A stretch of DNA of 37,757 nucleotides. It comes from Candidatus Altimarinota bacterium (GTDB lineage Bacteria > Patescibacteriota > Gracilibacteria > JAHISY01). Positions within the stretch are counted from its first letter, which is position 1; each line of letters starts with the position of its first letter. Location: contig JAQVAZ010000008.1 of the NCBI GenBank assembly GCA_028690585.1, forward strand, positions 1 through 37,757. Direction: 5' to 3'. The notes under the pieces were generated by a model that had not been told where the DNA came from, ran no database searches, and saw only the letters and a list, made by a program, of their open reading frames with translations. Below, piece by piece: positions 13,979-17,615 of the stretch. The position numbers and the translations under genes are program-made.

Positions 13979-15214
13979 TTAAATCTTTTCGATTTTTACT
14001 TTGGTGATGCGTTTGGATTCTACTTCTTCGATAGTTAATTCCGCATTACCCGCGCGGATTTTAGCATCTTCATGTGGCATTTTTCCCAGCTTATCCAGCA
14101 TGAGGAAAGCCACGGTTTTACCTTCGAATTTCCCCGCAGCGAGTTTCGTCTTGAGTCTTTTATCGATTTCCCAGAGAAGCGTATCTCCGTCTACGAGTAA
14201 AGTTTTGGAATTGATACGAGTGATTTTTTCCTCGGAGACATCTTCCTCATCTTCGATTTCACCGACGATTTCCTCGAGTAAATCCTCGAGAGTAACTAAT
14301 CCCAAAGTGCCACCATGCTCATCAACTACAATCGCGAGATGCGTGTGACGCGATTTAAATTCTTGGAAAAGTGACCGAATCGGGCGGCTGGCAGGTGTGA
14401 AAATCGGCTGCAGCAGAGGAAGTTTTTCTAATTTCAAATTCGCATCTCCTTGGAATTCAAAAATCTGGCGAATCGTAACTACTCCAATCACTTTATCAAT
14501 GGTTTTGTTGTAAACCGGCAAACGAGAATAAACACCTTCGCGAAAAAAAGCTTCAGCTTCTGCCACGGTTTTGGATTTCTCGATGGCTTCGATTTCCACG
14601 CGCGGAATCATCACTTCTTCTACTTTGGTATCAGTGAATTCCAAAACATTCTGAATCATTTCTTCTTCGTGTTTTTTCAATTCTCCACCCTCCACACCCA
14701 AACCAACCAAAGCTACCAACTCTGCTTCAGTAACTCTCTCAGTGTGTTTCATGCCAAGAGAATGCAAAATCCTCTCGAGAGTAAAAGTCAGCGGGAAAAG
14801 AATCTTATCTAGGTAATACAGCGGATAAGAAGAAACTAGCGCAACTTTCTCTGCGTGTTTCTGCGCGAAAGCTTTGGGGAAGATTTCTCCAAAAATCAGA
14901 ATCAGCAAAGTCATCACACCTGTTGCGATTCCCAAACCCATATCTCCAAAAAGCGTGGTTGCCACCACAGTAGCCAAACCTGCTGCGAGGATATTTACGA
15001 GATTATTCCCAATCAAAACTGTAGCGAGTAAACGCTGTGGCCGCGCTTTCAAGGCTACCAGAAGCTTACTAGCATGGGTTTTCTTCTCAGCAATTACTCT
15101 CACCTTCGCAGAGCTGAGACTGATAAAAGCTACTTCTGCAGCAGAGAAGAATGCTGAAAGCATCAGCAATCCAAGCAGCGCGAGATAAATCAGTAAATTA
15201 GAATCTTCCGCCAT
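13979..15214 (-). CDS. CNNM/CorC-HlyC family membrane protein
   Basis: A 411 aa protein with the standard order of the family: a DUF21/CNNM transmembrane domain (residues ~1-170, starting LLGLLMLSAFFSAAEVAFISL), a CBS-domain pair (about 190-310, with VEEVMIPRVEIEAIEK and HLAIVVDEHGGTLGLVT), a LEDLLEEIVGEIEDE helix, and a C-terminal CorC_HlyC domain (about 325-405). Members are linked to Mg or Co export and tolerance; the older name hemolysin is misleading. It is the first gene of the envelope operon. Its promoter (minus-strand TAAAAT near 15230, 12 nt before the ATG) lies next to the divergent tRNA-Gly promoter. Confidence 0.9.
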   Translation of the reverse strand: MAEDSNLLIYLALLGLLMLSAFFSAAEVAFISLSSAKVRVIAEKKTHASKLLVALKARPQRLLATVLIGNNLVNILAAGLATVVATTLFGDMGLGIATGVMTLLILIFGEIFPKAFAQKHAEKVALVSSYPLYYLDKILFPLTFTLERILHSLGMKHTERVTEAELVALVGLGVEGGELKKHEEEMIQNVLEFTDTKVEEVMIPRVEIEAIEKSKTVAEAEAFFREGVYSRLPVYNKTIDKVIGVVTIRQIFEFQGDANLKLEKLPLLQPIFTPASRPIRSLFQEFKSRHTHLAIVVDEHGGTLGLVTLEDLLEEIVGEIEDEEDVSEEKITRINSKTLLVDGDTLLWEIDKRLKTKLAAGKFEGKTVAFLMLDKLGKMPHEDAKIRAGNAELTIEEVESKRITKVKIEKI

Positions 15215-15262: not shown

Positions 15263-15337
15263 GCGGGTGTCGTATAACGGCTATTATGCCAGCTTCCCAA
15301 GCTGGAGACGGGGGTTCGACTCCCCTCACTCGCTCCA
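15263..15337 (+). tRNA. tRNA-Gly (CCC), CCA encoded
   Basis: The acceptor stem GCGGGTG/CACTCGC closes with one G.T pair. The anticodon stem CCAGC/GCTGG encloses the loop TTCCCAA, giving anticodon CCC at 15296-15298. The T arm GGGGTTCGACTCCCC is intact and the 3' CCA is genomically encoded. The last 23 bases (15315-15337) recur exactly at 15485-15507. Confidence 0.95.
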
Positions 15338-15377
15338 AACAAGTTCTTCCCCGCGAAGCGGGGGAGGTTTTGTTTGG
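15335..15377 (+). other. Hairpin that pairs the tRNA-Gly CCA with TGG
   Basis: A 43-nt hairpin starting at the CCA of the tRNA itself. The 5' arm (15335-15354) and 3' arm (15358-15377) pair at 19 of 20 positions around a GAA loop; the only mismatch is T.T at pair 10. The TTTTGTTT in the 3' arm could also serve as the tail of an intrinsic terminator. The tRNA-Arg hairpin has the same geometry with compensatory changes. Confidence 0.75.
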
Positions 15378-15507
15378 GAGAGATTGGGGCTGAGAACTCC
15401 CGCGGAGTAGGAAGCTTAATTATCTCCAAAGGTTTCCACGCGTGTGGCAGTAAATTGTTGATTTACGAAAAACTCGCAGCTAACTTCGACTCCCCTCACT
15501 CGCTCCA
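15338..15507 (+). mobile_element. tRNA-Gly-associated cassette ending in a copy of the tRNA 3' end
   Basis: 147 bp without a reading frame, followed by an exact 23-bp repeat of the tRNA 3' end (15485-15507). The period between the repeats is 170 bp. Inside are the CCA hairpin, a GGGAG/CTCCC helix, a CCACGCGTGTGG hairpin and a GTAAAT/ATTTAC hairpin, ending GCTAAC. The order and several blocks match the tRNA-Arg cassette. Calling it a non-autonomous integrated element is an inference from the att-like repeat; it could also be a processed non-coding RNA. Confidence 0.5.
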
Positions 15508-15709
15508 ATTAGTTAGTAGGTGGTAGATAATAGTTTGTAGATTTTTTTATTTGTCGTGGTGAGCTTGCCGAACCACATCAAAATTAATCTTGCTTTTTTT
15601 CTTCGAGTAAACGAAATGCATCGAGAAGTTTTATCTCTCCAAATTCTAGATTCATCCCGCTAAGCGGGATTCACTCGAGTAAAAATATGGAATGCTTTAT
15701 TCTTTATTC
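15508..15709. repeat. Repeat-rich gap without a gene
   Basis: Contains a TAGTTAGTAGGTGG-type repeat (15510-15545), a GTGGT/ACCAC palindrome (15556-15576) and the hairpin ATCCCGC-TAA-GCGGGAT (15654-15670). A 23-codon minus-strand frame (15584-15655) is too short to call. Confidence 0.5.
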
Positions 15710-16312
15710 CTATAAATTATTGAAATACCGATCTCCGAAATCCCCCATGCCAGGAATAATGTATTTCTTCGCATTGAGTTTTTTATCATGCGCGCCGATA
15801 ACCATCCGCACTTTTGGAAATTTCTTGCGGATAATTTTTTCTCCCTCTGGCGCGGAGATACACACTACGAAAATAATCTGGCTTTCTTTTGCGCCAGCTT
15901 TTTTGAGAAGCGTAATCGTATCGACAGCAGTGCCACCAGTTGCCAGCATCGGATCGAGTAGAATTATCAAACTCTTCTTAGTAATCGGTGGAATACTACG
16001 GTAATACTCATGCGCAATTGCTGTTTTTTCATCACGCTTCATACCGACGAATCCCACTCGCGCAGATTCGAAATAGCGGAGAAAGGCTGGTAGCAGCGCG
16101 AGGCCACTGCGCAAAACTGGCAGCAAAATAATCTCATGTGGGATTCTGCTACCCTGCCCTTTCGCTATCGGAGTAGTGATTTTCACTTTCTCTTCGGGAA
16201 TCAATTCCCCTGTTTTCGCTGCGAGTAATTCAGCGAGTTTATGCGCAGCCGCGCGAAAATCCGCCGTATCAGTTTTCTTCTCGCGGAGAGTAGTAAGGAA
16301 AGAGTTCAGCAT
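15710..16312 (-). CDS. upp: Uracil phosphoribosyltransferase
   Basis: Upp salvages uracil to UMP using PRPP. The 200 aa length is near the usual 208. The PRPP-binding loop reads LLDPMLATGGTAVDT, and the uracil-binding end GMGDFGDRYF is intact; VLRSGLALLPAFL marks the flexible region. It lies between the two tRNA genes on the opposite strand with no operon partner. pyrG and ndk in the same window act in connected pyrimidine steps. Confidence 0.95.
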   Translation of the reverse strand: MLNSFLTTLREKKTDTADFRAAAHKLAELLAAKTGELIPEEKVKITTPIAKGQGSRIPHEIILLPVLRSGLALLPAFLRYFESARVGFVGMKRDEKTAIAHEYYRSIPPITKKSLIILLDPMLATGGTAVDTITLLKKAGAKESQIIFVVCISAPEGEKIIRKKFPKVRMVIGAHDKKLNAKKYIIPGMGDFGDRYFNNL

Positions 16313-16374
16313 GGAGTTAGTTTTAGTATTTGAATTGAATCTATTTTAAACTCATCACCACAGATTTTGCGAAA

Positions 16375-16449
16375 GCTCCCGTCGTTCAATGGATAGGATG
16401 CAAGTTTCCGGAACTTGTGATGCAGGTTCGATTCCTGCCGGGAGCACCA
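16375..16449 (+). tRNA. tRNA-Arg (CCG), CCA encoded
   Basis: The acceptor stem GCTCCCG/CGGGAGC is fully paired. The anticodon stem CAAGT/ACTTG encloses TTCCGGA, giving anticodon CCG at 16408-16410. The T arm GCAGGTTCGATTCCTGC is intact, and the 3' CCA is encoded after discriminator A. The last 23 bases (16427-16449) recur with one mismatch at 16601-16623. Confidence 0.95.
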
Positions 16450-16489
16450 CACAAGTTTTTCCCGCCGAAGGTGGGAAAGTTTTGTGTGG
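16447..16489 (+). other. Hairpin that pairs the tRNA-Arg CCA with TGG
   Basis: Same size and layout as the tRNA-Gly hairpin: 20-nt arms, a GAA loop, 19 of 20 pairs and the T.T mismatch again at pair 10 flanked by wobbles. Relative to the Gly hairpin, pair 4 changes A-T to C-G, pair 12 C-G to T-A, pair 18 C-G to G-T and pair 19 G-C to C-G. All keep pairing, so structure rather than sequence appears conserved. Confidence 0.75.
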
Positions 16490-16623
16490 TAATACTGGTT
16501 GGTGAGAAATTGCCCCGTGGAGGAAAAAACTTTACTTCACGTGGAAGATTCCCAGGCGGCTGATGAAGGAATGTAAATTCAAAAAAATTATTGGCTAACC
16601 TTCGATTCCTGCCGTGAGCACCA
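16450..16623 (+). mobile_element. tRNA-Arg-associated cassette ending in a copy of the tRNA 3' end
   Basis: 151 bp without a reading frame, followed by a 23-bp copy of the tRNA 3' end (16601-16623) that differs by G to T in the acceptor strand. The period is 174 bp. It shares the CCA hairpin, a GAGAA block, a CCGTGGAG block, GTAAATT and a GCTAAC end with the tRNA-Gly cassette. The mismatch would break a base pair of the acceptor stem, so the distal copy is unlikely to be under tRNA selection. Confidence 0.5.
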
Positions 16624-16897
16624 AAAATTTTGCTAACGCAAAATCAGAATTAAGAATTGAGATTAAGAAGAAGAATTAAGGTTGCAAGAACCACTGCAAA
16701 ATTTTCCTTCATTCTTAATCTTTTCCTTATCCTTAATTCTTCAACTAAAAAACAAACCACTCCAGAAAACTTCAATGTGTAACGAACTTTTTTGTTCGAG
16801 CTTGTCGAGAACTTGTGCTGCTCAACTTCTCGACTCCGCTTCGCTTCACTCGAAGAAAGATTTTTGACTCTTATCCTTTAATTCAAGAAATAATTGC
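16624..16897. repeat. Repeat-rich gap before the M24 peptidase gene
   Basis: Holds a hairpin ATTTTGC-TAAC-GCAAAAT (about 16627-16645), a ~35 bp imperfect AT-rich inverted repeat (about 16650-16685 against 16705-16742, AATTAAG-type) related to sequence at 24663-24700, and short TTCTCGAC-type dispersed repeat pieces around 16790-16860. No gene is seen. Confidence 0.5.
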
Positions 16898-16910
16898 TAA
16901 ACTCACCGCA

Positions 16911-17615
16911 ATGCAATCTCCTCCACGCAAACCGAAAACTCAGAAAGAAATTACTCAGATTCTGGAAGCGTGTGAAATCGCTGGGAAAGTTTTGCTGGCA
17001 GCTGTGGAGAAATTGAAGATTGGGAAAAGCGAAAAATATATCAGTAAAGAAATTACGAAGCTTGCGCGGAAATTTGGCGCAGAGAAACTCGCGTTTAAAT
17101 CCATCGTCGCTTTTGGAGAAAGCAGCGCGATTCCCCACCACCGCCCAACTGGCAGGAAATTGAAGCGCGGTGATGCCGTAAAAATCGATATGGGAGTGAT
17201 GAAGCATGGAATGTGTAGCGACATCACGCGCACTTTTTTTGTGGGAGAAGCGACTGCGAAACAGCGCAAAGTATATAACCGCGTTTTGCGCAGCCAAACC
17301 CTCGCGCTGAAGACAGTGGAAGCAAGAGTAAAAGCGAGATTCGTAGATAAAGTTGCGCGCGAAGCGATGCAAGAATGGAAAGGAAAATTCATTCATGGCA
17401 CCGGCCACGGAGTCGGGAAACTCATTCACGAAGATCCGCGCCTGAAACCGAAATCCCTACAAACTCTCAAAGCGGGTGATGTAATCACAGTGGAGCCAGG
17501 CTTATATTTTGCTGGAGAATTTGGAGTAAGGATTGAGGATACGATTGTGGTTACGAAAGCTGGTTTCGAATTCCTCACGAAACTTCCTCGCAAACTAACA
17601 ATTCTGAGGATTTAA
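16911..17615 (+). CDS. Single-domain M24 metallopeptidase (Met- or Pro-aminopeptidase)
   Basis: A 234 aa pita-bread-fold peptidase with all metal ligands visible: the two Asp in KIDMGVMKHGMCSDITRTF, His in HGTGHGVGKLIHEDP, and Glu in VEPGLYFAGEFGVRIEDT, plus the substrate-binding His in IPHHRPTG. Size and the lack of an N-terminal domain suggest methionine aminopeptidase, which removes initiator Met. However the VEPGLYFAGEFGVRIEDT block resembles Xaa-Pro peptidases (PepQ/PepP). The ATG at 16911 is preferred over earlier in-frame starts because the upstream sequence is repeat-derived, and a TAAACT box lies 7 nt before it. Confidence 0.85.
   Translation: MQSPPRKPKTQKEITQILEACEIAGKVLLAAVEKLKIGKSEKYISKEITKLARKFGAEKLAFKSIVAFGESSAIPHHRPTGRKLKRGDAVKIDMGVMKHGMCSDITRTFFVGEATAKQRKVYNRVLRSQTLALKTVEARVKARFVDKVAREAMQEWKGKFIHGTGHGVGKLIHEDPRLKPKSLQTLKAGDVITVEPGLYFAGEFGVRIEDTIVVTKAGFEFLTKLPRKLTILRI

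Follow-up and report, generated by a model that had tools for sequence, protein, structure and literature searches.

Why should a tRNA gene be followed by a second copy of its own 3′ end, with a short gene-less segment between the two? The question is raised by tRNA-Gly(CCC) (15263-15337, + strand; ARAGORN; Rfam RF00005, 57.2 bits) and tRNA-Arg(CCG) (16375-16449, + strand; ARAGORN and Rfam), two genes in a 37,757-nucleotide stretch of DNA (the window: positions 1-37,757 of the forward strand of contig JAQVAZ010000008.1, assembly GCA_028690585.1) from Candidatus Altimarinota bacterium (Bacteria; Patescibacteriota; Gracilibacteria; JAHISY01). A preliminary description of the locus reported two homologous cassettes, each closed by a repeat of its host's tail, with periods of 170 and 174. 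Its coordinates and shared blocks were borne out, and no ORF is present inside either cassette. The Gly repeat is exact over 24 nt (15315-15338 and 15485-15508, period 170), and the Arg repeat spans 23 nt, of which 22 are identical and one is a mismatch (16427-16449 and 16601-16623, period 174).

Both units show the same order of parts, all on the + strand: a terminator-like hairpin (H), a 22-nt strand complementary to the host tail (the guide), a core of about 90 nt containing a hairpin with a GCGN loop (Pc), the motif GCTAAC and a copy of host nucleotides 54-76. In the Gly cassette, H (15338-15373) lies directly 3′ of the CCA and consists of a 10-bp stem (15345-15367) followed by TTTTGTTT. 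The guide, or anti-tail strand, TTGGGAGAGATTGGGGCTGAGAA (15374-15396), is complementary to the Gly tail (permutation tests are given below) and, in the MFE fold of the isolated unit, pairs with the second tail as the 5′ strand of a closing stem, P1. The conserved core (15397-15484; family alignment) includes Pc (CCAC-GCGT-GTGG, 15436-15447) and ends with GCTAAC at 15479-15484. The second tail (tail 2, 15485-15508) matches the 3′ end of tRNA-Gly at 24 of 24 positions, tail 1 being nucleotides 54-76 of the tRNA itself (15315-15337). In the Arg cassette, the base of H (16450-16486) reaches into the ACCA of the tRNA; its terminator-like stem (16457-16479) is followed by TTTTGTGT. The Arg guide, TGGTAATACTGGTTGGTGAGAA (16487-16508), forms 11 of 15 pairs with its own tail against a mean of 8.5 with other tails. 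The core (16509-16600; family alignment) carries a Pc in which the outer C-A pair is broken (CCAG-GCGG-CTGA, 16552-16563) and ends with GCTAAC plus one C (16594-16600). The single mismatch in Arg tail 2 (16601-16623) breaks an acceptor pair, which leaves tail 1 (16427-16449) as the functional one. Besides their opening hairpins, the two cassettes have GAGAA, CCG(C/T)GGAG, GTAAATT and GCTAAC in common, and both fold better than all or nearly all shuffled versions (z = -3.0 and -3.7).

The window's own genome (G000; 1.05 Mb in 48 contigs) was searched with the Gly cassette, the Arg cassette and all tRNAs. A covariance model (R1) trained on 16 cassette copies scores the Gly and Arg cores at 110 and 107 bits. 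The preliminary description was right about the two cassettes but too narrow in scope, as the feature extends well outside the window: approximately 23 copies are found genome-wide, R1 returning 23 matches at E≤5e-7. They follow 16 host tRNA genes (Gly-CCC, Arg-CCG/GCG/TCT, Leu-CAG/GAG/TAG/CAA, Ser-GGA/CGA, Tyr, Val-GAC, Glu-TTC/CTC, Asp and Trp) as well as the tmRNA gene. A tandem array of three units has tails that match tRNA-Ile, and one R1 copy (C44) is not preceded by any recognised tRNA. In this genome, palindromic elements of three further types (GCCTTCGCCCTTCGGGCTACGGC; TTCTTCGTTCC..GGAACTTCGAATGGC; AATTTTGCTAACGCAAAATTAGAATTAAG) likewise begin exactly at tRNA or tail-copy CCA ends (for example 16624-16760 of the window, and loci L014, L027 and L003).

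A covariance-model search for copies near other tRNAs, proposed in the preliminary description, identified cassettes in G000 and in five genomes of the same GTDB family (G001-G005), where they stand behind other tRNAs. Occupancy varies. In G001, 38 of 41 tRNAs are bare; own-tail copies lie behind two of the 41 as scored by script, plus Ala-GGC as seen by eye, where a palindrome interrupts tail 2. Some tRNAs that are bare in G000 or G001 are occupied elsewhere, namely Leu-TAA and Ala-CGC in G002 and Ala-GGC in G001. When R1 was run over 288 genomes of the class, matches were obtained in six only, all from one GTDB family, to which the cassettes are thus confined. In GTDB genome contigs the core pattern matched once in Gracilibacteria and seven times in taxa unrelated to them; chance alone should produce a similar number (3-4 by our own estimate). 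Viral contigs held no match to the same pattern. In other families of the class (loci L086, L088 and L074), shorter own-tail cassettes with apparent complementary strands but no R1 match are found behind tRNA-Gly; the habit of tail duplication is wider than the R1 family.

Every preserved tail copy reproduces the 3′ end (nucleotides 54-76) of its own host, down to base 57 and mostly to base 59. For 32 of 162 tRNAs from G000 and its relatives, at least 12 nt of the gene's own 3′ end recur 30-320 nt downstream, against 0.8 with shuffled partners (maximum 5 in 200 shuffles). The same 162 tRNAs yield three copies upstream and none for the reverse-complemented tail. The correspondence follows the host from one genome to another: the tRNA-Val tail reads AAACCCACCA in G000 and GGACCCACCA in G001, and in both cases tail 2 equals tail 1 of the same genome. 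Tail 1 always keeps all seven acceptor pairs, whereas tail 2 shows mismatches, truncations, palindromic inserts and, in the Leu/Ile/Arg-GCG subfamily, a shortened T-loop. The intact tail 1 and the degenerate tail 2 indicate that the former is the functional tRNA end and that the latter belongs to the cassette. A T-loop intron or removable insert, one of the alternatives entertained initially, was rejected on this pattern: tail 1 is unbroken and intact in every case, and it is tail 2 that is mutated, truncated or interrupted.

Several peculiarities of the tails were recorded along the way. A palindrome, CTGCCTGCCGGCAGGCAGG, is inserted at a near-identical T-stem position of tail 2, and not of tail 1, in several cassettes from three genomes (L127, Trp; L128, Glu; L100, L118, L207 and L213). 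Throughout the Leu, Ile and Arg-GCG cassettes of G000, G001 and G004, tail 2 is TTCAATCC or a near variant, its T-loop at least one base shorter than that of tail 1. At G004 L069:1590-1780, the T-loop of a tRNA-Arg(CCG) is interrupted by a segment that holds a second, complete tRNA-Arg(CCG) bounded by an inverted repeat; the right junction, GGTGA|GATTCC, resembles a Glu-type cassette end.

A comparison of the same loci in relatives, likewise suggested at the outset, revealed empty sites. The window pair is flanked by a CNNM/CBS/CorC_HlyC transporter-family gene (13979-15214, - strand) and an M24 metallopeptidase gene (16815-17615, + strand). G002 has the same order, CNNM(-), Gly-CCC, 6 bp, Arg-CCG, M24 peptidase(+), with neither cassette: the transporter gene is kept beside the empty tRNA pair (65% protein identity to the window's) and the peptidase gene directly after the empty tRNA-Arg (48%). 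A uracil phosphoribosyltransferase gene that lies between tRNA-Gly and tRNA-Arg in the window is absent from the G002 locus. Orthologous tRNAs that are empty between the same flanking genes imply that cassettes were gained or lost; such syntenic empty sites were seen between genera only, where intergenic flanks do not align base by base. With many copies and syntenic empty sites, the cassettes are apparently mobile. Fixation everywhere, a lack of other copies and an origin in tandem tRNA duplication, all of which the preliminary description had set against its own reading, were not what we found.

Two features of the family bear on whether the unit acts as RNA. The first is Pc, a 4-bp hairpin fully paired in 28 of 30 copies. 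Its pairs vary among C-G, G-C and U-A at position 2, among A-U, G-C and U-A at position 3, and among G-C, A-U, C-G and G-U at position 4. These changes amount to compensatory evolution and constitute the strongest sign that the unit functions as a folded strand. They lend support to the non-coding RNA character that was among the first proposals. No helix besides Pc is backed by covariation when RNAalifold is applied to the whole alignment.

The second feature is the guide, the 22-nt strand that follows the opening hairpin, whose sequence is similar to the host tail in reverse complement. Summed over the copies, guides form 251 pairs with their own tails against 227.6±4.4 with permuted hosts (p = 2e-5); duplex energies give p = 4e-4, which becomes p = 1.8e-3 when each isotype is represented by a single copy. 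The effect is modest, amounting to roughly one pair more in every 15, and many copies pair as well or better with the tails of other hosts. Such complementarity allows guide and tail copy to form a stem that closes the unit, a closure that is statistically supported though modest for each copy. In the isolated Gly unit, the MFE fold is closed by guide and tail 2; when tail 1 is included, the guide prefers tail 1. The conserved GGTGAGAA would be the counterpart required opposite the TTCRA that is invariant in tRNA T-loops.

The closest parallel is found in Escherichia coli. In the K-12 tyrTV region, units of 175-178 bp lie behind each tRNA-Tyr, each unit containing GGGGAAGG(A/G)TGAGAA and ending with AATCCTTCCCCCACCACCA; the MFE fold of the 178-nt tyrV repeat unit is closed by GGGGAAGGAU:AUCCUUCCCC, its guide and tail. 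Rfam family RF00391 (RtT) matches four tyrTV units, and the E. coli record annotates the ncRNA RttR and tpr. Like the cassettes, these units start directly after the tRNA CCA, can be tandem, carry a strand complementary to the tail followed by GAGAA, and have a copy of the host 3′ end, CCA included, that closes each unit and forms its closing stem in the MFE fold. Unlike the cassettes, they are confined to tRNA-Tyr in the region examined, their tail copy is 19 nt long and lacks TTCG, and no GCGN-loop hairpin is recognised in their core. The models do not cross-detect: cmscan with RF00391 gave no match at E≤10 in the loci of the window, Ile-array, Val and Arg cassettes, matching E. coli only, and none at E≤5 in 14 other cassette loci; R1 gave only background scores in E. 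coli. Rfam searches at gathering and at permissive thresholds found nothing above the gathering score in cassette loci other than tRNA and tmRNA, so that membership of a known RNA family was rejected. On present sequence comparisons, the cassettes share the anatomy of RtT with no detectable sequence relationship; they appear to work like RtT and are not filed as a member. The initial statement that no such family had been described has to be given up, as tyrTV/RtT repeats have the same anatomy. Open-access searching on RtT/tyrT and tRNA-tail repeats turned up nothing relevant. To our knowledge, the tyrT repeats have so far been a one-locus curiosity, and we know of no previously seen genome-wide, apparently mobile family with the tyrTV layout.

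We favour the interpretation, with a probability of roughly 0.55, that the cassettes are a family of structured non-coding RNA units of roughly 150 nt, RtT-like, that sit directly behind tRNA and tmRNA genes and spread from gene to gene. Read-through of H would allow the unit to be transcribed together with the tRNA. Guide and tail copy would then pair into a minihelix resembling an acceptor/T-stem with a CCA end, from which tRNA-processing enzymes may release a defined RNA, comparable to the RttR annotated behind E. coli tyrV. The tail copy would arise at insertion, as a target-site duplication of about 23 bp of the tRNA end, the guide being subsequently tuned to it. Two observations count against an RNA unit: H resembles an intrinsic terminator that would keep most transcripts out of the unit, and the guide could pair with tail 1 instead, as full-context folds prefer. 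Furthermore, tail 2 cannot be essential everywhere, since in several units it is degenerate or interrupted by a palindromic insert.

Among the competing explanations, the one that survives best sees the cassette as a MITE-like miniature DNA element inserted after the tRNA CCA with a 23-bp target-site duplication, its hairpins being DNA or transposition signals with no RNA function. We consider this possible but unlikely. It accounts for the multiple copies, variable occupancy, empty sites and own-host tails, and fits with other palindromic elements being located exactly at CCA ends or within tail 2 and with Y1-type transposase genes being present in G000, G002 and G004. Still, a dead insert is not expected to display compensatory changes in Pc over old, diverged copies, nor guides matching different hosts. 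In addition, no terminal inverted repeats were seen, a Y1_Tnp search of G001 was empty though that genome has cassettes, and two Y1 genes checked in G000 have palindromes next to them that are unlike the cassette. Attribution to RAYT/REP was rejected, the Y1 genes being there but next to a different repeat. These Y1 (RAYT-like) genes (L235 and L236, on contigs C5 and C37) are flanked by the palindrome GGTTCAAGTTTGTAACTTGAACC, of which one arm, GGTTCAAG, is tRNA T-arm sequence. Like REP/RAYT, RUP and BOX repeats and MITEs, the cassettes are short, structured, multi-copy and gene-less; unlike them, they occur strictly at tRNA or tmRNA 3′ ends, bear a host-derived tail cap and lack terminal inverted repeats. 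Casposons and Cas1-type insertions, too, lie behind a tRNA and duplicate its 3′ end; the cassettes resemble them in both respects but are gene-less and far smaller, and no terminal inverted repeats are recognised in them.

A more tentative proposal, which we also regard as improbable, is that the cassette might be a parasite of tRNA ends, an RNA element of about 150 nt whose insertion copies the 3′ end of the tRNA or tmRNA behind which it landed. Its guide would pair with that tail and thereby let the enzymes of tRNA processing mature the element. Target-site duplication or RNA-templated copying could give each copy the tail of its own host. If the guide selects the target, the cassette would be an RNA-guided mobile element with no gene of its own.

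The integration into a tRNA gene with restoration of its 3′ end that was first envisaged holds as regards mobility and the repeated 3′ end, but is not supported in the sense of integrase action. In this scheme, which we judge quite improbable, the cassettes would be miniature satellites of tyrosine or serine recombinases, crossing over in the T-loop and mobilised in trans. The repeat does run exactly from nucleotide 54 to CCA, the geometry of tRNA-targeted islands; Islander-type tRNA/tmRNA-targeted islands cross over in the T-loop, repeat the tRNA 3′ fragment at their far end, leave the tRNA functional and also use tmRNA (PMC4383910). Unlike such islands, the cassettes are about 170 bp long, have no integrase gene, bear a different tail in each copy and share no common attP. 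Site-specific recombination cannot create a different host tail per copy, and an att-based element would need a new attP for every tRNA. Tyrosine-recombinase (Phage_integrase) genes number only one or two per genome (three genomes), none of them beside a cassette in the places listed. Integration at a conventional att site is a poor fit.

A genuine island of about 9.8 kb does occupy the same position behind tRNA-Ile(GAT) in G000, between the gene and the Ile-tailed triple array (C6:104731-115123; L182 and L126). It has a large serine recombinase (557 aa) adjoining tRNA-Ile and, as judged by eye, DNA-methylase-like and helicase-like ORFs. Having parted tRNA-Ile from its array, the island shows that the same junction also serves ordinary integration. 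Two other candidates were rejected. Group I/II introns and retroelements are set aside because the cassette is too small and reverse transcriptase (PF00078) is absent from G000, G001 and G002. As for an integron integrase, the insertion point is G^TTC, but the last base of the cassette is C rather than G, and the RYYYAAC/GTTRRRY rules of integron attC sites are not followed.

Slippage or template switching at hairpins, duplicating tRNA 3′ ends, with gene conversion subsequently making tail 1 and tail 2 alike, seems very improbable to us: it would explain short repeats that run beyond CCA into the trailer in relatives (Gly-GCC and Leu-TAA of G002) and unit arrays (Ile x3, Glu-TTC x2) like those of E. 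coli tyrTV, but one homologous core behind many unrelated tRNAs calls for movement from locus to locus, and slippage offers none. Simple tandem tRNA duplication with decay of the second copy would leave a 3′ tRNA fragment downstream in the same orientation, but it has next to nothing in its favour otherwise and is excluded by the absence of tRNA sequence or fold upstream of the tail and by a non-tRNA core that is homologous behind unrelated tRNAs and scores as R1, not as tRNA.

The cassettes form a genuine family, restricted in distribution and present in many copies, of structured non-coding units that end in host tRNA tails; the family is a genome-wide variant of the tyrT/RtT kind. In a reduced genome, an anatomy like that of tyrT is now found behind the tmRNA gene and 16 tRNA genes; sites are seen both filled and empty, units can stand in tandem, and the core covaries. 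Guide, tail and host tRNA change together across approximately 30 natural variants. With these it becomes possible to test what purpose the tail copy serves, by what route the units spread, and whether it is common for tRNA transcripts to carry a second RNA matured by tRNA processing.
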